Assembly (NCBI GenBank): GCA_026169535.1
Contig: JAPFCU010000078.1
Coordinates: 1 to 64,000 of the forward strand
Length of the DNA stretch: 64,000 nucleotides
Direction: 5' to 3'
From: Blautia sp.
Lineage (GTDB): Bacteria; Bacillota; Clostridia; Lachnospirales; Lachnospiraceae
The position numbers and the translations under genes were made by a program. Below, piece after piece: positions 765-14,656 of the stretch (the stretch's first letter is position 1; each line of letters opens with the position of its first letter). Under the pieces are notes generated by a model that saw nothing but the letters and a program-made list of their open reading frames with translations, did no database searches and had not been told where the DNA came from.

Positions 765-2654
765 ATGAATAACAAAGAGTTTAAACCGTATGTTCCAGCA
801 GAAAAAGTAACTGCTGAAATGACGGTGACCTCTGTGATCATGGGTATAATCCTGGCAGTTGTATTTGGCGCAGCCAATGCTTATCTTGGTCTTCGTGTTG
901 GTATGACAGTATCTGCTTCCATTCCGGCAGCAGTTATTTCCATGGGCGTTATCCGTGTAATCATGAAGAAAAACTCCATTCTTGAGAGCAATCTGGTACA
1001 GACCATCGGTTCTGCAGGTGAATCTCTTGCAGCTGGAGCTATCTTTACTATGCCGGCGCTGTTTCTCTGGGCAGAGGAAGGTCTTTGCGAGAAACCTGGT
1101 CTGGTAGAAATTACTCTGATCGCACTTTGCGGCGGTGTCCTGGGTGTGCTTTTTATGGTACCCCTTCGTAACGCTCTGATCGTGAAGGAGCATGCCACAC
1201 TTCTTTATCCGGAAGGAACTGCATGTGCAGATGTTCTTCTGGCAGGTGAAGAGGGCGGATCAAATGCAGCTACTGTATTCTCTGGTATGGGAATCGCAGC
1301 AGCATTTAAGTTTATTGTAGATGGGCTGAAAGCCGTTCCGGCAGATGTTGCTGTAGCCTTCAAGTCCTTTAAGGGTGAAATCGGTATGGAGGTTTATCCG
1401 GCGCTTCTTGGTGTTGGTTATATCGTAGGACCGAGAATTGCATCCTTTATGTTTGTAGGCTCTATTGTGGGATGGCTGGTAATTATCCCTCTTATCTGTC
1501 TGTTTGGACCGGAAACCTCTATGTATCCGGCAGCGGCAGGTGTGACAATTTCCCAGCTTTTTGCAGAGGGCGGAGCAGCGGCTATCTGGTCAAATTATGT
1601 AAAATATATCGGAGCAGGTGCTATCGCCACAGGCGGTATCATTTCTCTGATCAAATCTCTGCCTCTGATCATTTCTACCTTCCGTGATTCTATGAAGAGC
1701 ATGAAAGGATCTCAGGCGAACAGTACTTTAAGAACTGATAGAGATCTCCCAATGGGTGTGATTCTTGTTGGTATCCTTGCAATGGTATTTATTATCTGGT
1801 TTGTTCCGGCAATTCCGGTAAATTTTCTTGGAGCTCTTCTGATCGTAGTATTCGGTTTCTTTTTTGCAACCGTTTCCTCCCGTATGGTAGGTATGATCGG
1901 ATCTTCCAACAACCCGGTTTCCGGTATGGCTATTGCCACACTTCTGATTGCTACATTTGCTATTAAAGCAACAGGTGAGACTGGTATCAAGGGTATGACA
2001 GGCGCAATCGCTATTGGTTCTGTTATCTGTATCATTGCAGCAATTGCAGGTGATACTTCTCAGGACCTTAAGACAGGATATCTTCTTGGAGCTACTCCGA
2101 AGACACAGCAGATCGGTGAACTTCTTGGTGTTGTCGTATCCGGTCTTGCAATCGGCGGCGTTCTTTATCTTCTGGATGCTGCATGGGGCTATGGTACAGC
2201 AGATGTTCCGGCTCCTCAGGCAGGTCTTATGAAGATGATCGTAGAGGGTATCATGGGAGGAAACCTTCCCTGGACTCTAGTATTTGTAGGTGTATGTCTT
2301 GCAATTGGCCTTGAAATTTTAAGAATTCCGGTAATGCCTTTTGCAATTGGTCTTTATCTTCCGATTTATCTGAATGCAACCATTATGATCGGCGGTGCAG
2401 TACGTATGTTCATGGACGGACGCAAGAAGGTAGATGCAAAAACAAAAGAAAGACAAATTACAGATGGCACACTGTACTGCGCAGGCATGATCGCCGGAGA
2501 AGGCCTTGTGGGTATTTTCCTTGCAATTCTGGCAGTAGCAGGAGTGACTATTCCATCTTTCATCAGCTTTGGAAACATTGGTGGTGTTGTGATCATGATT
2601 CTTATGATCCTCTGTCTGCTGAAATTCTCCTTATGGAATAAAAGAAAAGACTGA
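765..2654 (+). CDS. OPT family oligopeptide transporter
   Basis: A 629-residue multi-spanning membrane protein of the oligopeptide transporter (OPT/YSL) superfamily, which imports small peptides or metal chelates by secondary transport. Family blocks visible are an N-terminal 'AANAYLGLRVGMTVSASIPAA' region, 'GSAGESLAAGAIFTMPAL', the 'LYPEGTACADVL' motif and 'GDTSQDLKTGYLLGATPKTQQ', all typical of bacterial OPT proteins. Length is usual for the bacterial branch. The ATG has a good ribosome site (GGGAGAGG) eight bases upstream. It shares one base with the following PqqD-like gene, so the two are translationally linked. The substrate cannot be told from sequence. Confidence 0.93.
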   Translation: MNNKEFKPYVPAEKVTAEMTVTSVIMGIILAVVFGAANAYLGLRVGMTVSASIPAAVISMGVIRVIMKKNSILESNLVQTIGSAGESLAAGAIFTMPALFLWAEEGLCEKPGLVEITLIALCGGVLGVLFMVPLRNALIVKEHATLLYPEGTACADVLLAGEEGGSNAATVFSGMGIAAAFKFIVDGLKAVPADVAVAFKSFKGEIGMEVYPALLGVGYIVGPRIASFMFVGSIVGWLVIIPLICLFGPETSMYPAAAGVTISQLFAEGGAAAIWSNYVKYIGAGAIATGGIISLIKSLPLIISTFRDSMKSMKGSQANSTLRTDRDLPMGVILVGILAMVFIIWFVPAIPVNFLGALLIVVFGFFFATVSSRMVGMIGSSNNPVSGMAIATLLIATFAIKATGETGIKGMTGAIAIGSVICIIAAIAGDTSQDLKTGYLLGATPKTQQIGELLGVVVSGLAIGGVLYLLDAAWGYGTADVPAPQAGLMKMIVEGIMGGNLPWTLVFVGVCLAIGLEILRIPVMPFAIGLYLPIYLNATIMIGGAVRMFMDGRKKVDAKTKERQITDGTLYCAGMIAGEGLVGIFLAILAVAGVTIPSFISFGNIGGVVIMILMILCLLKFSLWNKRKD

Positions 2655-3025
2655 TGAAAAAAAGAAATAAAAAAAAGATGGCAGATATCAATTATCTGGA
2701 TTTGATACCGGAGAAAAACAGCTCATTGAAGTGGCATACAGATTTGAAAGAGCGGGTGATCCTTGAAGTGGAAAATACCGGGATCATGAATAAGATTGCA
2801 CAGAATCTGTTCAATAAACCGCGTTTTACAAAAGTCCATCTGGATGCTAATGGAAGTTTCATCTGGCCGCTGATCGACGGAAAACGTACGGTGGCAGATA
2901 TTGCTGTGCTGGTAAAGGAACAATTCGGGGAGGCAGCCGAACCTCTGTATCCCAGAATTATCAAATATTTCCAGATTGTAGAAAGCTATCATTTTATCAG
3001 ATTTGTAAATATGCCCGAAAAATAG
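2654..3025 (+). CDS. PqqD-like small protein
   Basis: A 123-residue cytoplasmic protein. The stretch 'NGSFIWPLIDGKRTVADIAVLVKEQFGE' fits the PqqD fold, best known as a peptide-binding (RiPP recognition) domain. Here it has no radical SAM partner and instead overlaps the OPT transporter stop codon by one base, so a peptide-handling role linked to transport is possible but inferred. The N-terminus is very lysine-rich. The second Met (position 9, MADINYLD) is an alternative start, and neither start has a strong ribosome site. A terminator follows nine bases after the stop. Confidence 0.75.
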   Translation: MKKRNKKKMADINYLDLIPEKNSSLKWHTDLKERVILEVENTGIMNKIAQNLFNKPRFTKVHLDANGSFIWPLIDGKRTVADIAVLVKEQFGEAAEPLYPRIIKYFQIVESYHFIRFVNMPEK

Positions 3026-3033
3026 GGCAGAAT

Positions 3034-3074
3034 AAGAGCGGGAAGCGGCTTGTGCCGTCTCCCGTTCTTTTAGG
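3034..3074 (+). terminator. Terminator of the OPT-PqqD operon
   Basis: The stem AAGAGCGGGAAGCGGC / GCCGTCTCCCGTTCTT with a TTGT loop is followed by T residues. Confidence 0.85.
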
Positions 3075-3125
3075 ATATGGGACGCTTTACCGCATTAGAG
3101 TTATAACTACAGGAGGAGGTTTATT

Positions 3126-3989
3126 ATGAAACTTGCAGGAAAAAGATCTTTGTTTCTGGAATATATGGTAATCTTTATAGGAACAGGGCTGATGGCAGCT
3201 GCAATCACCTCCTGTTTCGATGCTGCCGGTCTTGTAACAGGAGGCTTTTCCGGAGCTGCTATCCTGGTCAAAGAATGGACCAGAGGAATTGTTAAAAACG
3301 GAGTTCCTCTGTGGATTACGAATCTTAGCCTGAATATTCCTCTTTTTATACTTGCCACAAAGATCAAAGGATTTTCATTTGTAAAAAAAGCGCTGATCGG
3401 AGATATGTCATTGACTATGTGGCTGGCTGTTCTTCCGGCATGGGAGCTTTCTGATGATATTCTTCTTTCCTCTGTTTATGGAGGAATCATTCTTGGTGTG
3501 GGAATTGGGCTTGTATTTCTCGGAGGAGGAACTACTGGCGGAACAGATATGCTGGCTGCGATTATCCAGAAGTATATGAGGCATTATTCTATTGCACAGA
3601 TCATGCAGTTTATAGACGGAGCTATTGTACTTGTGGGAATGTACGTATTTGGTATTCGTAAGGGACTTTATGCGATTATTGCTGTTTATCTTGTAACAAA
3701 GGTTTCAGACGGTTTGATCGAAGGACTGAAATTTTCAAAAGCAGTTCATATTATCACCGATAAGCCAGAGGCAGTGGCCCGTATGATCATAGAGGATATG
3801 GATCGAGGGGTGACAGGGATTCATGCAAAGGGAATGTATTCTGAACAGGAAAAACTGATGCTTTACTGCGTGGTGGGCAAGAAGGAACTGGTTCAGCTTA
3901 AAGAAAAGATTGATGAGATCGATCCTAATGCATTCGTGATCGTAGGGGATGCCAGAGAGGTACATGGAGAAGGATTTATAGAAAGATAG
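3126..3989 (+). CDS. YitT family membrane protein
   Basis: A 287-residue protein with five or six hydrophobic segments in the first ~200 residues (YitT/DUF161 type) and a soluble C-terminal DUF2179-like domain (about 205-285, with 'AVHIITDKPEAVARMI' and 'HAKGMYSEQEKLMLYCVV'). The glycine-rich 'GLVFLGGGTTGGTDMLAAII' motif is characteristic. Such proteins are common in Firmicutes and their transported substrate is not established. A strong ribosome site (GGAGGAGG) precedes the ATG. The gene stands alone between a terminator and the cdaR-like gene. Confidence 0.88.
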   Translation: MKLAGKRSLFLEYMVIFIGTGLMAAAITSCFDAAGLVTGGFSGAAILVKEWTRGIVKNGVPLWITNLSLNIPLFILATKIKGFSFVKKALIGDMSLTMWLAVLPAWELSDDILLSSVYGGIILGVGIGLVFLGGGTTGGTDMLAAIIQKYMRHYSIAQIMQFIDGAIVLVGMYVFGIRKGLYAIIAVYLVTKVSDGLIEGLKFSKAVHIITDKPEAVARMIIEDMDRGVTGIHAKGMYSEQEKLMLYCVVGKKELVQLKEKIDEIDPNAFVIVGDAREVHGEGFIER

Positions 3990-5370: not shown

Positions 5371-5385
5371 GAGGTGATTATTCAT

Positions 5386-6381
5386 ATGGTAACAATGAAA
5401 GACATTGCGGAAAAATTAAATATTTCCAGATGCACAGTATCCAACATATTAAATGGTAAATTAGAAAATAAATCCTATAAAAAAGAAACGATAGACTTGG
5501 TATTGGCAACAGCAGATGAAATGGGATATGTATCTAATACCATTGCTCAATCTCTTAAAACAGGTGTGACAAAAACTATTGCGGTAGTTGTGCCAGACTT
5601 TGCCAATCCTTATTATATTAATATTGTAAAAGAAATAGAACAGGCAGCAGCAGAGGACGACTATAATCTGATCATATGCATTGCAGAAGAAAAATTGGAA
5701 AAAGAAAATAAAATTTTAACAATGCTTCGCAGTAAGATGGTAGATGGTATCATTATTTCTCCAATATCTTATACGGAATCTTTAAAAGATATCAGAGGAT
5801 TAAAAATCGTGTGTTTTGACCGTAAGGTAGAAGGTAAGGAAATTCCATATATTATATCGGATAATGAAAAGGCCACGCAGAGAATGACAGAATGTATGAT
5901 AAAAAGAGGTGTAAAAAAACCTATATATATCGCAACTTCTGATCAGGATTATACGATATGCTATCGAATTCGCGGTTTTCGCCATGCATTGGAAGCTGCG
6001 GGATGCGGATTTGAAGAAAGACAGATATGTTATCATATATATAATGAGAAACAGGCTTATGACTGTATTCTTCGTCTCGTGAGAGAACAAGGTGTGTTTT
6101 TCGATGGTATTATATTAAGTACAAATTATGTATTATATGGAGTTAAACAGGCATTACAGGAATTACATTTTGATGTACCGCTGGGAGGGTTTGATGATTT
6201 TGCAGGATCCAATCTTGAAAAGAATCGAATGTTAATCGCGTCATGGCCTGAAAAAGAGATTGCTCGTATGGCGTACAAACAGTTATCCTGTTTGATTCAT
6301 AATAAGAAAGCAAAAAGTATGGTAATTCCTCATGTTATGTGGGAGGACTCTGAAACTATATTTCCAGAAAATTCCGGTTGA
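5386..6381 (+). CDS. LacI family transcriptional regulator
   Basis: A 331-residue LacI/GalR repressor. The N-terminal helix-turn-helix is 'TMKDIAEKLNISRCTVSNIL', followed by a hinge and a periplasmic-binding-protein-like effector domain starting at 'TIAVVVPDFANPYYINIV'. ATG 5386 is chosen because GAGGTG lies nine bases upstream and because it places the helix-turn-helix at the usual N-terminal position; a GTG twelve bases earlier is possible but less likely. It probably binds the TATACTCGAGTATA sites at its own promoter and at 6490-6534, controlling the ABC-M24-MFS operon downstream. Base composition is clearly more AT-rich than the flanking genes. Confidence 0.93.
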   Translation: MVTMKDIAEKLNISRCTVSNILNGKLENKSYKKETIDLVLATADEMGYVSNTIAQSLKTGVTKTIAVVVPDFANPYYINIVKEIEQAAAEDDYNLIICIAEEKLEKENKILTMLRSKMVDGIIISPISYTESLKDIRGLKIVCFDRKVEGKEIPYIISDNEKATQRMTECMIKRGVKKPIYIATSDQDYTICYRIRGFRHALEAAGCGFEERQICYHIYNEKQAYDCILRLVREQGVFFDGIILSTNYVLYGVKQALQELHFDVPLGGFDDFAGSNLEKNRMLIASWPEKEIARMAYKQLSCLIHNKKAKSMVIPHVMWEDSETIFPENSG

Positions 6382-8047: not shown

Positions 8048-9022
8048 ATGAAAAAGATATTGGAAAAAAGAGAGACAGGAGTATTCTTAATTTTACTTTT
8101 GTTATGTTTAGGCCTGAGTCTTTACTCTCCAAGTTTTCTTTCGTATACAAATATAAAAAATGTATTAGTAAATAGTGTTCCGGTAGGTATTATGGCTGCG
8201 GGAATGACAATCGTTCTGATTACAGCAGGAATAGATGTATCAGTCGCATCCCAAATGATGTTTAGTGCTACATGGCTTGCTATTTTTTCACAAAACAGTT
8301 CTATGGCAAATCCTGTAACTGTATTAATCCTGGCATTAGTGCTAGGTGCTATAACAGGAGCGATAAATGGATTTTTGATTGCTGCATTTTCTATTCCGCC
8401 GATTATTATTACGTTGGGAACAGCAAGTATTTATCGAGGAATCATTTTGGTCTATACAAATGGACGGTGGATCATGAATATTCCTAAATGGTTTACAGCC
8501 CTTGGAAAAACCTATTATAATATTCCATTACCTATCATATATGCAATCATTATATTCCTGATAACTGCCTGGATTTTAAGACATACATATTTTGGAAGAT
8601 CTGTATATGCAGTAGGCGGAAATGAAAATGCAGCACGATATGTAGGTGTAAACATTAAGAAGACTATTTTCTTAACATATTTTTATTCAGGACTTTTATG
8701 TGGATTTGCAGGATTTGTATTAGATGCAATTCTTGGAAACTGTCAGCCATCTGGATCTAATGGCTGGGAGATGAATGCGATTGCGGCAGCAGTAATAGGT
8801 GGAACCAATATTTTAGGAGGCTCAGGATCTGTTATCGGTACTGTTATTGGCGTTGCAATGATGGGGGTTATAGAAAATGGACTTGTAGTTGCACATATTC
8901 CAACCTATTGGCAGAAGCTTGTATATGGTTTGATAATAATTGCAACTGTAACATTTGACGTACTCAGAAGAAATTATGCAGATTCTAAAAAGCAGATGAT
9001 AGAAATTGACCAGGAGGCATAA
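8048..9022 (+). CDS. CUT2-type ABC transporter permease 1 (RbsC-like)
   Basis: A 324-residue permease of the ribose/branched-chain class with about eight to ten hydrophobic segments. Family features are 'AAGMTIVLITAGIDVSVASQ' near residue 55, 'YAVGGNENAARYVGVN' and 'AAVIGGTNILGGSGSVIGT'. It abuts the ATPase gene directly (start follows the stop codon) with its ribosome site inside that gene's GGGGGG end. With the next gene it forms a heterodimeric channel. Confidence 0.93.
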   Translation: MKKILEKRETGVFLILLLLCLGLSLYSPSFLSYTNIKNVLVNSVPVGIMAAGMTIVLITAGIDVSVASQMMFSATWLAIFSQNSSMANPVTVLILALVLGAITGAINGFLIAAFSIPPIIITLGTASIYRGIILVYTNGRWIMNIPKWFTALGKTYYNIPLPIIYAIIIFLITAWILRHTYFGRSVYAVGGNENAARYVGVNIKKTIFLTYFYSGLLCGFAGFVLDAILGNCQPSGSNGWEMNAIAAAVIGGTNILGGSGSVIGTVIGVAMMGVIENGLVVAHIPTYWQKLVYGLIIIATVTFDVLRRNYADSKKQMIEIDQEA

Positions 9023-9025
9023 GTG

Positions 9026-9991
9026 ATGGAAAAATTAAGAAAAAGATTCACATTGCATGAAATGGTTCTGGCAGGAGCATTTCTTCTGATTTTCCTGATT
9101 GGTGCATGTTCTAATGAAAATTTCTTATCAATCAGAAATATTTTATCATTGTTCCAGCAGATGTCAGAGATGGGGATCATGGCAATGGGATTAACAATTG
9201 TAATTATTACAGGTGGTATGGATCTTTCTGCTGGTACAACAATGGGACTTTGCGCTGTAACATCAGGATTATGTTTAACAAAAGGATTAGGTGTGGTTCC
9301 TTCGTTGATAATTAGTTTAGGCGTAGCTGTATTATGTGGAGTAATGAATGCTGTTTTAGTAGCAATTATAAGGATTCCTCCTATGATTGCGACTTTAGGC
9401 ACTCAGATGTTCTTTTTAGGTGTAGCATTAGTGCTTAGTAAAGGAAATTCTATTTCTGGAATTCCGGAAAGCTTTTATTTTCTGGGACAGGCTAAAATAT
9501 TTGGCATGCCGCTTCAGATGTTGCTGTTATTTGGATTAGCAGTATTTCTTATAATCATGCTAAAAAATACTGTGACAGGACAGCATATTTATGCATTAGG
9601 AAATAATATGAAGGCAGCTCTGTTTTCCGGTATTCGTACAACACATGTTTTATTTTATTCATATATCATGTGTTCTGTAATGTGCTGTATAGCGGGGAAT
9701 ATCCAGGTATCACGTGTGGCGACTGCCAGAGCGGACATGGGATCAGCATTTTTGATGACGTGTATTTCCGCAGTTGTACTTGGAGGTACGAGTATTAATG
9801 GAGGAAATGGAGGAATTGTGGGTACAGTTGTAGGAATTATGATTTTTGCCATGATTGGGAATATTATGAATCTTGTAGGTATTTCATCATTTTGGCAGCA
9901 GCTTGCAACAGGAAGTATTCTGGTTTTGGTTGTGGTATTTAATCGTATGATTGAGATGCAGAAATATAAAGTAAAGAGCAGAAAAGTATGA
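9026..9991 (+). CDS. CUT2-type ABC transporter permease 2 (RbsC-like)
   Basis: A 321-residue permease paralogous to its neighbour, with 'AMGLTIVIITGGMDLSAG', 'YALGNNMKAALFSGI' and 'AVVLGGTSINGGNGGIVGT'. ATG 9026 has AGGAGG eight bases upstream; a GTG three bases earlier is the alternative. Two distinct permeases are the rule in rhamnose- and AI-2-type importers (RhaPQ, LsrCD), which supports that subgroup. Confidence 0.92.
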   Translation: MEKLRKRFTLHEMVLAGAFLLIFLIGACSNENFLSIRNILSLFQQMSEMGIMAMGLTIVIITGGMDLSAGTTMGLCAVTSGLCLTKGLGVVPSLIISLGVAVLCGVMNAVLVAIIRIPPMIATLGTQMFFLGVALVLSKGNSISGIPESFYFLGQAKIFGMPLQMLLLFGLAVFLIIMLKNTVTGQHIYALGNNMKAALFSGIRTTHVLFYSYIMCSVMCCIAGNIQVSRVATARADMGSAFLMTCISAVVLGGTSINGGNGGIVGTVVGIMIFAMIGNIMNLVGISSFWQQLATGSILVLVVVFNRMIEMQKYKVKSRKV

Positions 9992-10037: not shown

Positions 10038-11018
10038 ATGAGGAAAAGATTAGCACTTTTTGCACTTGGTGCAGCAATGATGATTGGGATGGGAACAACT
10101 GTATATGCGGAGGAAGAATATACTATTGCATTAATACCGCAGCAGGTAGGTATTCCGTATTTTGAGACCTCTAATGTTTGGGGTACAAAAGCTGGAGAAG
10201 ATTTAGGGTGTGAGGTTATTTATACCGGTCCTACATCAGGGGACGCAGCAGCCCAAGCTAATATTGTTCAGGATATGATAACTAAGGGTGTTGATTGTAT
10301 TGCAATTTCACCATTGGATGCGAGCGCCATCGAGCCGGTATTAAAGCAGGCTAAAGAAGAAGGTATTAAAGTAATTACGTGGGATTCTGATGTAACGGAT
10401 ACTTCTTTAAGAGATGCATATGTAAATTGTTGTTCTGAAAAAGTGCTTGGAGAACATCTAATGCAGCGGTTTGCTGAGTATATGGGAGAAGAAGGTGAAT
10501 ACGCTATCATTACAAGTGTTTTAACAGCGCAGAACTGTTCCGCATGGGCAAAATATGCAACAGAGTATCAGGAAACAAATTATCCAAACATGTCACGTGT
10601 TGCTTATGAACCGTGTGATGATGATCAGTCTAAAGCATATGCGATTACTCAAAACTTAATGACCGCATATCCAGAACTCAAGGGTATCTTAGGTGTCACA
10701 ACACCTGCACCACCAGCAGCAGCTCAGGCGGTTGGAGAAGCTGGAAAGAATGGAGAAATTGTCGTTACAGGTGTTGTAGAAGCATCTGCTGCAAAATCAT
10801 ATCTGGAAGACGGCTCTATGCAGGAAGCAAATATCTGGCATCCGGGAAAACTTGGTTATTTAGCAGTTTACACAGCTAAGACACTTTTGGATGGCGGGGA
10901 GATTACAGATGGTATGGATATACCAGAAGTTGGCGTTGTAGAAGTAAAAGGCGATCAGATTATTATGACAGAGTTGTTGGATATCACAACAGAAAATGTA
11001 GATGATTTTGACTTCTAA
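10038..11018 (+). CDS. CUT2-type ABC transporter substrate-binding protein (RhaS/LsrB-like)
   Basis: A 326-residue periplasmic-binding-protein-like protein. A signal peptide (MRKRLALFALGAAMMIGMG...) ends near VYA-EEE. The mature part has the sugar-binding class I fold ('IALIPQQVGIPYFETS', 'GVDCIAISPLDASAIEPVL', 'ITWDSDV') and resembles rhamnose/AI-2 binders most. There is no lipobox cysteine, so it looks secreted rather than lipid-anchored, which is unusual for a Gram-positive importer. A strong AAGGAGG site precedes the ATG. The ligand is unknown. Confidence 0.9.
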   Translation: MRKRLALFALGAAMMIGMGTTVYAEEEYTIALIPQQVGIPYFETSNVWGTKAGEDLGCEVIYTGPTSGDAAAQANIVQDMITKGVDCIAISPLDASAIEPVLKQAKEEGIKVITWDSDVTDTSLRDAYVNCCSEKVLGEHLMQRFAEYMGEEGEYAIITSVLTAQNCSAWAKYATEYQETNYPNMSRVAYEPCDDDQSKAYAITQNLMTAYPELKGILGVTTPAPPAAAQAVGEAGKNGEIVVTGVVEASAAKSYLEDGSMQEANIWHPGKLGYLAVYTAKTLLDGGEITDGMDIPEVGVVEVKGDQIIMTELLDITTENVDDFDF

Positions 11019-11081
11019 AATATGTGACTGTCTGTATGAATGAAAAGCATGGGACAGTTCCCATACTGGTTAGGAGGAGAT

Positions 11082-12260
11082 ATGAAGCCTAGAATTTCAA
11101 AACAGGAATTTCACAATCGTATATTAAAGATGCGTAAGTATATGGAAGCAAACGACATAGACGCGATTTTAGTATATGGAGATGAGTACAGAAAAGAAAA
11201 TTTAAGATATGTATCAAACTACTGGCCGATATTCGAACGAGGGGCAATGCTTTTGGGAAGGACGTTAGATCCGATTGTACTGTGTGCTCCGGAGGGACAA
11301 AAGGTAGCAGAGGAAATGAGTGTATGGCCTGACATACGTCTCTCACCAGATTTTCTGTGTGTGACAGTGCCGGATGAAATTGATTATCCATTAGCACAGT
11401 ATACAAGTTTTTCTTCGTTGGCAGATGAACTGCGTGAAAAAGAAAAGCTTGAAAAACTTGGTATTGTAGGAAAAGATGCAATGTCTGTAGATCTGTATGA
11501 AAAAATCAAAGCAGGTTTTGATACAGAACTGATCGATTGTAATGAACTTTTATTTGACCTTCGCCGGGAAAAAAGTGCAGAGGAAGTAGAATGTCTACGT
11601 GAAGCGGCAAGAATCGCAGATGCAGGATTTAAGGCTATGATGCAGTCGGAGCTTATAGGAAAGACAGAATTGGAGGCGGCAGGGATTGCGGAAGCAGCTG
11701 CAAGAGCTGAAGGTGCAGAACATATTATTTTTCAGATTTATGGAAGTGGAAAGAGGACGGACAGAATTGTTGGACGTCCTACAAACAAGATTATTGAAAA
11801 TGGTGATATGATCATGTGTGCATTGGCTGTCCAGTATGAGGGATATGTTGCAACCTGTGAAATGCCGTTTGCAGTTGGGGAATACAGTGAAGAGACCAAA
11901 TACGTGATTGATGTATTGGTTCGGGCATTAAAAGCTGGCCAGCCTTATTTAAAAGCTGGTGTTCCTATGAAACAGTTTGTACAAGCTGTAAAACAGGTAT
12001 TTTATGAAGAAAATCTTTCTGAGTATGATATTTATCCACCATTACATGGGATTGGATGTGCAGAAGCAGAGTCCCCATATCCTGATACTGAAACAGAAGA
12101 AGTATTTAAAGCTGGGATGACGGTAAATACAGATATTAGTTTATTTGGATTACCAGGCGGCTCCAACCGTATAGAGGAAGGTTTTATAATTACAGAGAAT
12201 GGAGCAGAATCGTTGTCTCCGTTTATAAATCAATGTTGTAAAGAATGGAAGGTGTGTTAA
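11082..12260 (+). CDS. M24-fold (Xaa-Pro aminopeptidase/creatinase-like) protein A, metal site degenerate
   Basis: A 392-residue protein with a creatinase-type N-terminal domain (about 1-155, 'LRYVSNYWPIFE') and a pita-bread C-terminal domain (about 165-385). In active M24 metallopeptidases five residues bind two metals (Asp, Asp, His, Glu, Glu). Here they read Ala247, Thr258, His322, Asn349 and Glu365, so three are lost. The creatinase catalytic His is not evident either. The activity is therefore unknown and annotation as a peptidase would mislead. ATG 11082 follows AGGAGGAG; an in-frame ATG at 11040 has no ribosome site. It lies in the ABC operon and is paired with a second such gene two bases downstream. 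Confidence 0.85.
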   Translation: MKPRISKQEFHNRILKMRKYMEANDIDAILVYGDEYRKENLRYVSNYWPIFERGAMLLGRTLDPIVLCAPEGQKVAEEMSVWPDIRLSPDFLCVTVPDEIDYPLAQYTSFSSLADELREKEKLEKLGIVGKDAMSVDLYEKIKAGFDTELIDCNELLFDLRREKSAEEVECLREAARIADAGFKAMMQSELIGKTELEAAGIAEAAARAEGAEHIIFQIYGSGKRTDRIVGRPTNKIIENGDMIMCALAVQYEGYVATCEMPFAVGEYSEETKYVIDVLVRALKAGQPYLKAGVPMKQFVQAVKQVFYEENLSEYDIYPPLHGIGCAEAESPYPDTETEEVFKAGMTVNTDISLFGLPGGSNRIEEGFIITENGAESLSPFINQCCKEWKVC

Positions 12261-12261
12261 A

Positions 12262-13443
12262 GTGAAGATAAGGATTGAAGATAGCGAATTTCAGGAAAGA
12301 ATCATTAAAACACAGAATGAAATGAAAAAGGAAGGGCTCGATATTTTATTTGCTTATGGTAATGAAGCGGAACCACAATACGTACGTTATTACAGTGATT
12401 ATTGGCCTTCTTTTGAGTCGGCAGGTGTATTGATTCCAGCAGAAGGAGAAGCTATTTTGATCATCGGACCAGAAAGTGAGACTTTTTCCAGTCATGTTTC
12501 AAGGATCAAAAAGATCAGAAAAGTGCTGGTGTTCCGTGAATCCTCTGAACCTGAGTATCCGGGGGCAAAATTAGAAACATTCGCATCTGTGATCAAAGAA
12601 GCAAGCGGAAATAAACCTGTTGCTAAGATCGGTGTGGCAGGAGGATGCCTTGTGACCCATGTGATCTATGAAGCATTACTTTCAAGTTTACCAGAACTGG
12701 GAAATCCTGAATTAGTAAAGGCTGATATGCTCGTAGCTAAGCTTCGTGCAGATAAGTCTCCGGCAGAGATCGCATGTCTCAGAGAGGCATATCGTATCAC
12801 ACAGGCTGCAATGAAAGCGGTTGTTGAAAATGTCCATGTGGGAATGACTGAAAATCAGCTAAAAGGAATTGCAATGTCTGTGATCTATAAGGAAGGTGGA
12901 GAGGGAGAAGCCTATCCATTCTGGATCCTTACTGGAAAAAATTCTAATCAGGCAATCAGTCGATGTCGAAATAAGGTTATTGAAAAAGGTGATATGATTC
13001 AGGTACAGGTAGGAGCAAGATATGAAGGATATGCTTCTACAATGGGAAGAGCCATTGTCATGGGTAAAGCAACAGAAGAGCAGAAAGGCATGATCGAGGC
13101 AGCCCTTGCAGCACAAAAAGCCATTCTCAATACTGCTAAAGCAGGAGTAAACGCATCAGAAGTCAGCAGAGTACATTATGAGACATTAAAAGAGTTAGGA
13201 TATGATTCTTGTATTCTTTATGGCCCATGTCATGGTACCGGTTTAATGGAAGGTGAATATCCATGGATTGAATCAAATTCGGATTATCTTTTGGAGGAAA
13301 ATATGACATTCTGTACATGTGTCTATCTTGGTGATGATAAAAATGAAATAGGTCTTCGTATAGAGGATGGTTTTTTGGTAACAGCTGAAGGAACAGAATC
13401 ATTTTCAGACTATCGTCGAGAGGTTATAGAGATTGACAGATAA
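12262..13443 (+). CDS. M24-fold (Xaa-Pro aminopeptidase/creatinase-like) protein B, metal site degenerate
   Basis: A 393-residue paralogue of the preceding protein, with the same two-domain plan ('VRYYSDYWPSFESAG' in the N-domain). The expected metal ligands read Gln249, Thr260, His324, Cys351 and Glu368, so the same three positions are lost as in protein A but to different residues, apart from Thr at the second. It starts with GTG behind GGAAGGTG. The shared loss in two diverged copies suggests an evolved metal-free function, perhaps as a heterodimer, since this fold usually dimerises. The substrate is presumably linked to whatever the upstream importer brings in, which is inference. Confidence 0.85.
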   Translation: MKIRIEDSEFQERIIKTQNEMKKEGLDILFAYGNEAEPQYVRYYSDYWPSFESAGVLIPAEGEAILIIGPESETFSSHVSRIKKIRKVLVFRESSEPEYPGAKLETFASVIKEASGNKPVAKIGVAGGCLVTHVIYEALLSSLPELGNPELVKADMLVAKLRADKSPAEIACLREAYRITQAAMKAVVENVHVGMTENQLKGIAMSVIYKEGGEGEAYPFWILTGKNSNQAISRCRNKVIEKGDMIQVQVGARYEGYASTMGRAIVMGKATEEQKGMIEAALAAQKAILNTAKAGVNASEVSRVHYETLKELGYDSCILYGPCHGTGLMEGEYPWIESNSDYLLEENMTFCTCVYLGDDKNEIGLRIEDGFLVTAEGTESFSDYRREVIEIDR

Positions 13444-14656
13444 ACGGAAAATGTTTCAGAAGCGCAGGTCTGGAAATTGTGATTCGGATCTGCGCTTTTT
13501 GAAATTAAGTTGTTGGATGATTTTTCTTCTTGGATTTGAGTCGGGAGGTTTTCAATTAGCATTATTAAAAATTGCAAGAGAATTTAATATTACAAATACA
13601 GAAATGGGAGGATTGGTTTCAGTACAATTTCTTGCAATGATGACTATGCCGGTTATTTTTGGAGCTTTAGCAGATATCGTTGGTAAAAAAAAGATACTGC
13701 TGTGGTTTTCTCAAATATTTACAGCGGGCTGTATAGTAACGGTAATGACACCGGCTTATATTGGTATTGTATTCGGGATATTTTGTATAGGTTCTGGATA
13801 TAGCGTATGTGAAAGTGTTTTAACAGCAAGTTTATTTGATGAATATCCTCAAAAAGGAACTTCTTATGCAGGATGGACCCAATGTTGTTTTTCCATAGGT
13901 GCAGTAACTGGTCCACTTATATGTGATTTTATGATAAAATGTGGAATTGGTGATTGGAGAAATGTCTTTTATCTAATGGCAGGTTGCTATGCTGTAAATG
14001 GTGTATTACTTTTTAAGCTTCCAATGAAAGTTCATGAGTTGCGTATAAGAAAAAAATGGGGAATAAGAACATTAAAGGGGTCGACATGTAGATCAATGAT
14101 GGATAATGTTATTAAATGTGTACCAAATTCTGTGATTCCATGCTTTGTTCTTATGATCTGTTATGTGGGTATCGAAACAGGAATTGCATATTTTTTAGAT
14201 TCGTTTTTGAATATGGAATTGAAGGCTTCTTCCAGTTCATCTAAAATATTAGCTTCGTTTTGGCTATTTATGATTCCGGGAAGAATATTTTGCGGGAAGC
14301 TTGCGAAAAAGGGCAATAAAGCTTTAGTAATATGTTTTGTAAGTATATTGATATTACTATTTGGATGGCAAAATTGCAGAAGCATTATTATGTTTGCAGT
14401 ATTGATCGGCTGTTGTGGTGTTTCATGTGGTATGGTATGGCCGATGCTCATGGGAATGGCAAATTCAAGAGCACAGGGGCTATACGGAAGAGTGTCTGGT
14501 TTAATGACAATGGGAAGTGGTATAGGAGGTGCTCTTTGGCCAATAGTATTTGGTAAGTTAATGGATGTTGGCGGGATCAGAAATTCTCTCTGGATGCTGA
14601 TTGCTACAGGGGGAGTTGCGATTTTGATACTTATTGTACAAAGAAGACAAGTGTGA
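13433..14656 (+). CDS. MFS transporter
   Basis: A 407-residue major facilitator with about twelve membrane segments and a central cytoplasmic loop near residues 195-215 ('ELRIRKKWG'). The first half has 'EFNITNTEMGGLVSVQFLAMM', a typical start of MFS helices 1-2. The TTG start is preferred because GAGAGG lies nine bases before it; an ATG 18 bases later has no site. The gene overlaps M24 protein B by 11 bases and closes the LacI-controlled operon. It could export a product of the M24 proteins or import a second substrate. Confidence 0.85.
   Translation: MTDKRKMFQKRRSGNCDSDLRFLKLSCWMIFLLGFESGGFQLALLKIAREFNITNTEMGGLVSVQFLAMMTMPVIFGALADIVGKKKILLWFSQIFTAGCIVTVMTPAYIGIVFGIFCIGSGYSVCESVLTASLFDEYPQKGTSYAGWTQCCFSIGAVTGPLICDFMIKCGIGDWRNVFYLMAGCYAVNGVLLFKLPMKVHELRIRKKWGIRTLKGSTCRSMMDNVIKCVPNSVIPCFVLMICYVGIETGIAYFLDSFLNMELKASSSSSKILASFWLFMIPGRIFCGKLAKKGNKALVICFVSILILLFGWQNCRSIIMFAVLIGCCGVSCGMVWPMLMGMANSRAQGLYGRVSGLMTMGSGIGGALWPIVFGKLMDVGGIRNSLWMLIATGGVAILILIVQRRQV

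Follow-up and report, generated by a model that had tools for sequence, protein, structure and literature searches.

Two adjacent M24 proteins in a Blautia operon are members of a family, observed in Clostridia, without the bridging aspartates of metallopeptidases

The M24 (pita-bread) fold is shared by peptidases and by non-peptidase proteins, such as Spt16 and, in excerpts of its description, PA2G4. Prolidase and aminopeptidase P (M24B) carry a dinuclear Asp/Asp/His/Glu/Glu site; in Escherichia coli PepQ, the ligands are Asp246, Asp257, His339, Glu384 and Glu423, as given in an excerpt of its report (PMC4213023). In part of the text on the dimethylsulfoniopropionate lyase DddP, this enzyme is described as a metalloenzyme with invariant ligands (PMC4108388), and the ectoine hydrolase EutD needs a partner hydrolase, EutE, for efficient ectoine breakdown, according to a portion of PMC8739950. 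The present analysis concerns two adjacent M24 genes, A and B, in a 64,000-nucleotide stretch of Blautia sp. DNA (the window: contig JAPFCU010000078.1, positions 1 to 64,000 of the forward strand). The window is part of contig C33 of a 2.6-Mb host genome that is 90% complete, and among the relatives found, the closest that bears a name is a Lachnospiraceae metagenome-assembled genome, whose A is 98% identical to that of the window. The two genes are:

11082..12260, + strand: M24 protein A, 392 amino acids, ATG start behind GGAGGAG

12262..13443, + strand: M24 protein B, 393 amino acids, GTG start one base past the A stop

Both genes are intact, with full-length frames; the longest open reading frame covering A starts at 11040, and the ATG at 11082 was chosen. 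PF00557 is matched over the whole or nearly whole length (96.9 bits for A and 139.7 bits for B, cut-off 23), and PF01321 is also matched by both. AlphaFold2 predicts the two-domain pita-bread fold, with a mean pLDDT (predicted local distance difference test) of 93.4 and a pTM (predicted template modelling score) of 0.91 for A, and 96.2 and 0.93 for B. By the curated cut-off and this predicted fold, A and B are members of M24.

The metal columns tell a different story from the prolidases. In MAFFT, with one DoeA protein, two creatinase-type proteins and canonical M24 as reference rows, they hold Ala247, Thr258, His322, Asp351 and Glu365 in A, with new Glu328 and Glu330, and Gln249, Thr260, His324, Cys353 and Glu368 in B. 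An earlier note on this DNA had read all but the fourth of these in the same way; it had placed the fourth ligand two residues too early, at Asn349 in A and Cys351 in B. For A, the phmmer alignment with solved prolidases gives the same Asp351 register (GMTVNTD against GMVITIE). The note's count of three ligands gone in each protein stands for the bridging Asp pair, absent from both; the third had been mis-registered, and A has lost two ligands, with Asp for Glu as the third change, while B has lost three, one of them to Cys. A and B thus resemble M24B in fold, His, last Glu and RxE motif, but the dinuclear site is not present, and with Ala/Thr/His/Asp/Glu and Gln/Thr/His/Cys/Glu neither has the five ligands of a Xaa-Pro peptidase. 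The two other M24 genes of the host genome, which we take to encode a methionine-aminopeptidase-like protein and a 594-residue aminopeptidase P-like protein, keep the Asp pair. In the column that we take to be that of the catalytic His (His79 of methionine aminopeptidase, MAP; His232 of creatinase), A has Val230 and B has Ile232. After correction of the fourth ligand, the observation is real and belongs to a larger pattern, and the A/B family is probably a variant of non-peptidase M24.

A profile search of 391 genomes of the class Clostridia gave a match at E 1e-60 or better in 42, one of which (G224) proved canonical on alignment. From loci of these genomes and of closer relatives, picked for high profile score, 71 rows were aligned after removal of identical ones, and two canonical rows were left out; the remaining 69 include A and B, but not the members of G011 (L038), G1009, G692 and G591. 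Asp occurs at neither bridging column in any of the 69, whereas both Asp are present in all nine canonical M24 rows of the same alignment (seven controls and two neighbourhood M24 proteins). Four further proteins (two of G1009, one each of G692 and G591) also lack both. The catalytic His of creatinase, which had already seemed not evident in A and B, is found in 0/69. Other residues are strictly kept: in A numbering, His322, Glu328, Glu330, Arg363 and Glu365 are conserved in 69/69. The fourth ligand column holds Asp in 63 and Cys in six, all of them B-type. Glu52, in a loop of the N-domain, is Glu in 66 and Asp in three, and Glu71 is Glu in 65/69. This loop reads WPxFE in the family, and at the same place the creatinase-type rows have one that ends in FG. 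Together with the retained His and final Glu and the new ExE pair, the WPxFE loop suggests a remade pocket.

In a maximum-likelihood tree, the 69 rows and the G591 protein form one clade (70 rows, support 100/99). A groups with the D-type and B with the B', C, E and F types. Every type but E (A, B, B', C, D and F) forms a single clade, the labels of L124 and L045 having been changed by hand. The A and B branches are separately supported, old and about 31% identical. A recent tandem duplication is rejected by this tree, and the idea that A and B are diverged tandem copies falls with it. The loss of ligands is ancestral and does not stem from a tandem duplication, because 0/69 relatives have either bridging Asp. 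Support for joining the family to creatinase is weak (94/74), and the branches involved are long. A phylum search with A2 at E 1e-60 matched 61/299 genomes, most rows at 205-233 bits, and the 17 loci checked in that range were all canonical; scores above 400 bits occur only in the window genome, G692 and G591, the last two with the demetallated pattern. In plasmid records, tblastn gave 95 matches for A and 644 for B, all below 60% identity, and those listed (30 for A and 40 for B) are at 22-31%.

The ratio of nonsynonymous to synonymous substitution rates (dN/dS) of A and B, relative to G011 and G042, is 0.044-0.057; for the solute-binding protein, ATPase, permease 1 and LacI genes of the same operon it is 0.020-0.059 where computable. 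A and B are therefore not decaying; the earlier note, too, had thought decay unlikely. Purifying selection and the invariant new pocket residues support the view that their functions are retained.

Membership of A and B among the creatinases, the ectoine hydrolases EutD/DoeA and DddP was rejected in each case. The creatinase-type rows, so called from their neighbours (sarcosine reductase; creatininase) since their records say only M24 family metallopeptidase, keep the catalytic His that A and B lack; their fourth column is still Glu and their last Glu is replaced by His, whereas the demetallated family has ExE instead. No creatine or sarcosine pathway genes are found in the window operon. The DoeA row likewise keeps His at the catalytic column, unlike A and B. 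The best scores against EutD/DoeA models are 57.5 bits for A (NF038259, cut-off 575) and 77.2 bits for B (TIGR02993, cut-off 613), and the window operon contains no DoeB/EutE-type gene. EutD may be the best functional analogy. DddP is similar in that an M24 fold performs non-peptidase chemistry on a small solute, but its ligands are missing from A and B, and B scores 45.8 bits against a cut-off of 600 (NF043017), A not being listed. None of the NCBIfam models listed for A and B comes near its cut-off.

Gene order places A and B in a plus-strand chain running from a LacI gene (5374) through a CUT2 ATPase, two permeases and a solute-binding protein to A (11082), B (12262) and a major facilitator superfamily (MFS) gene (13433). 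Besides A and B, its members are:

5374..6381, + strand: LacI-type regulator, probably of this operon; the upstream position is kept in L038, L039 and L044

6554..8047, + strand: CUT2 double ATPase, from profile matches

8048..9022, + strand: CUT2 permease 1 (PF02653), zero gap to the ATPase gene

9023..9991, + strand: CUT2 permease 2 (PF02653), zero gap to permease 1

10038..11018, + strand: CUT2 solute-binding protein (PF13407); best NCBIfam model RhaS, 220 bits, below its cut-off of 342

13433..14656, + strand: MFS transporter, its start overlapping the B stop by 11 bases

The MFS gene is found in L038 (81%) and L044 (37%) and was not seen in L039. An imported small molecule as substrate, as suggested earlier, fits the presence of CUT2 genes in this operon and next to some relatives.

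Neighbourhoods of the 69 relatives were counted within 6 kb on the same strand. A gene for an ASRT protein, a metallohydrolase or a CUT2 permease is present in 59/69; the totals are 36 for ASRT, 45 for a partner hydrolase and 18 for the permease. The partner depends on the branch: C-type genes have ASRT in 20/28 and a creatininase-like gene in 20/28, B'-type genes a phosphotriesterase (PTE)-like gene in 8/9, D-type genes M81 in 7/10 and ASRT in 6/10, F-type genes a PTE-like gene in 3/4 and ASRT in 4/4, and E-type genes M20 in 2/3. CUT2 genes accompany 5/7 A-type and 5/6 B-type relatives, and no creatininase-family gene lies within 6 kb of either type. The metal motifs of the partners, presumably ligands, are intact (ExH in 21/21 creatininase-like and HEH in 13/13 PTE-like proteins).

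In equal 1.5-kb flanks, 29 top-scoring family loci of the profile search (mostly C and B' types) were compared with 40 canonical M24 loci. The M24 protein carries Asp/Asp/His/Glu/Glu in 40/40 of the controls, and either bridging Asp in 0/29 of the family loci. ASRT, creatininase, PTE or M81 is present in 25/29 family loci vs. 0/40 canonical ones; singly, the counts are 16 vs. 0 for ASRT, 20 vs. 0 for creatininase, 4 vs. 0 for PTE and 6 vs. 0 for DUF4432. The earlier note had said that its reading would fall if relatives in this gene context kept the whole metal site; at the loci covered, 0/69 family members do. At L114, a canonical M24 gene is encoded on the other strand, about 1.6 kb away from a B'-type gene.

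Several neighbours of the family are related to sugars: DUF4432, which we take to be mutarotase-like, PfkB, NagB-like proteins, L-rhamnose mutarotase, GH3 and GHL6. The NagB-like proteins of L043 (8981-9907) and L165 (17028-17942) are 61% identical and have no Pfam match, that of L043 scoring 73 bits, below the NCBIfam cut-off; both genes adjoin a PfkB kinase and an A-type M24 gene.

The searches located an A-type gene in nine genomes or records, and a B, B' or B-like gene is also present in 7/9: B in G000, G011, G042, G020 and G078, B' in L036 and a B-like gene in G1009, the product of which is 47% identical to B and has Asp, not Cys, at the fourth column. The two without a partner are G146, a genome 73% complete, and L037, a contig of 3.6 kb. 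A and B are adjacent in G000, G011 and G042; in G1009, the order is B-like then A, with 68-base spacing. In a family-level sample of 299 genomes, nearly one per genus, A has matches at E 1e-100 in three and B in the same three; the chance figure for 2/2 among 298 is 2.3e-5, a figure that ignores relatedness. Conversely, G321 has B without A at the search threshold, and in G078 a B gene with its CUT2 set lacks an A-type neighbour. A and B may form a heterodimer or carry out successive steps.

The explanation we favour, tentatively, is that A and B belong to a catabolic M24 subfamily that acts on imported, probably sugar-like solutes without a dinuclear centre. The ancestor would have lost the two bridging Asp, hence the dinuclear centre, along with the His that is catalytic in creatinase and prolidase, and would have gained the ExE beside the kept His, the N-domain loop with its near-invariant Glu, and Asp (or Cys) at the fourth ligand. 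The CUT2 transporter would bring in a small polar solute that probably resembles a sugar or amino sugar; A and B, either in a cross-dependent dimer or one after the other, would hydrolyse a C-N or C-O bond of it by His/Glu acid-base chemistry. This reading builds on the modelled fold, the residue pattern, the single clade, the purifying selection, the gene order and the co-occurrence of the two genes, from which the reaction, the substrate, the lack of metal and the A-B complex are inferred. In creatinase, Phe and Arg of the N-domain loop reach the site of the other subunit. If the loop acts in the same way here, each subunit would lend a Glu to its partner, and two diverged subunits would then make sense. 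The acidic residues and the NagB-like and PfkB neighbours of two A-type loci may favour an amino-sugar-like solute. A more specific version, which we regard as doubtful, is a module of Clostridia in which an M24 protein without dinuclear centre, an ASRT-type small binding protein and a true metallohydrolase (creatininase-like, PTE-like, M81 or M20 by branch) degrade amino-sugar-like solutes by a new His/ExE mechanism, A and B forming an obligate heterodimer with two composite active sites.

Some observations weigh against a catabolic subfamily of this kind. No CUT2 permease lies within 6 kb in 51/69 relatives, and 10/69 have neither ASRT, partner hydrolase nor CUT2 there, several contigs ending within that distance. 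In the 1.5-kb flanks, CUT2 permease and M81 are found in 0/29 family and 0/40 canonical loci. The window operon itself contains no ASRT gene and no partner metallohydrolase. Finally, A retains three of the four ligand positions of the tighter metal site, which bears on the first of the alternatives.

This alternative, less probable but a serious possibility, is that A and B are one-metal enzymes: His322/Asp351/Glu365 of A, perhaps with Glu328, and His324/Cys353/Glu368 of B would hold a single ion at the tighter prolidase site and activate water or the substrate. The site of His339 in PepQ is built of the second Asp, the His and both Glu, and by this make-up His/Asp/Glu of A represent three of its four positions. 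These residues remain in A and 63/69 relatives, and the Cys of six B-type proteins could be a zinc ligand. The earlier claim that the metal site is lost is thus too strong. In an excerpt of the PepQ report, the metal held by His339 is the denser one, which the authors relate to a higher-affinity site (PMC4213023). On the other hand, the bridging Asp serving both sites is gone in 69/69, and the change from Glu to Asp shortens the side chain.

It is rather improbable that A and B are non-catalytic ligand-binding or scaffold proteins, like Spt16 and PA2G4, aiding the transporter or a partner hydrolase. The absence in 69/69 of both bridging Asp and of the His shared by creatinase and prolidase, and the intact motifs of the neighbouring hydrolases, are consistent with such a role, but the strictly kept charges of the pocket region look like catalysis or very specific binding, and there is no other obvious catabolic enzyme in the window operon. 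That they are normal Xaa-Pro peptidases whose ligands reappear elsewhere in the alignment is very unlikely: the fold, Pfam and PDB matches are to prolidases (best 50 matches of the fold search), but HMMER and MAFFT agree for A, either bridging column holds Asp in 0/69 relatives and both do in 9/9 canonical rows, and the listed NCBIfam models stay far below cut-off. Pseudogenes decaying after a duplication would explain the lost ligands, but are scarcely credible given the full-length frames, the low dN/dS and a residue pattern common across Clostridia.

If the favoured catabolic subfamily is indeed enzymatic, the M24 fold offers a further metal-poor route to catalysis, next to those of creatinase and EutD. 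Matching M24 peptidase models, the genes of the family would be annotated as peptidases; by residues and neighbours, they are probably not. The recurring link of the family to ASRT and to varied metallohydrolases points to a solute-degradation module in Clostridia that was not found in literature searches. Among the matches listed in full-text searches, whose coverage leaves out most subscription journals, there is no paper on a demetallated M24 family. ASRT genes occur with monosaccharide ATP-binding cassette (ABC) operons, according to a portion of PMC2739507. A term search of the main text of that paper gave 0 words that start with peptidase, M24 or creatin, and no metallohydrolase or M24 partner of ASRT is reported in the same portion; an inactive zincin-like metallopeptidase is mentioned beside another ASRAH family.

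A few minor observations concern the surroundings of these genes. ASRT (PF07100) beside a demetallated M24 gene and a metallohydrolase recurs in L040, L042, L036, L047, L048 and loci L053-L076. A gene of about 257-294 residues adjoins the B'-type M24 gene, mostly with PTE as well, in L078 (2693-3466), L093, L105, L110, L114 and L131, and has no Pfam match in the two copies scanned. The 5.7-Mb genome G078 (L040, L043-L047) has eight demetallated M24 members, each locus also with CUT2 transporter genes. In the window, the operon is preceded on its 5' side by a PucR-type regulator, itself preceded at 765-3989 by an OPT oligopeptide transporter gene, then a PqqD-like gene and one that we take to be YitT-like.
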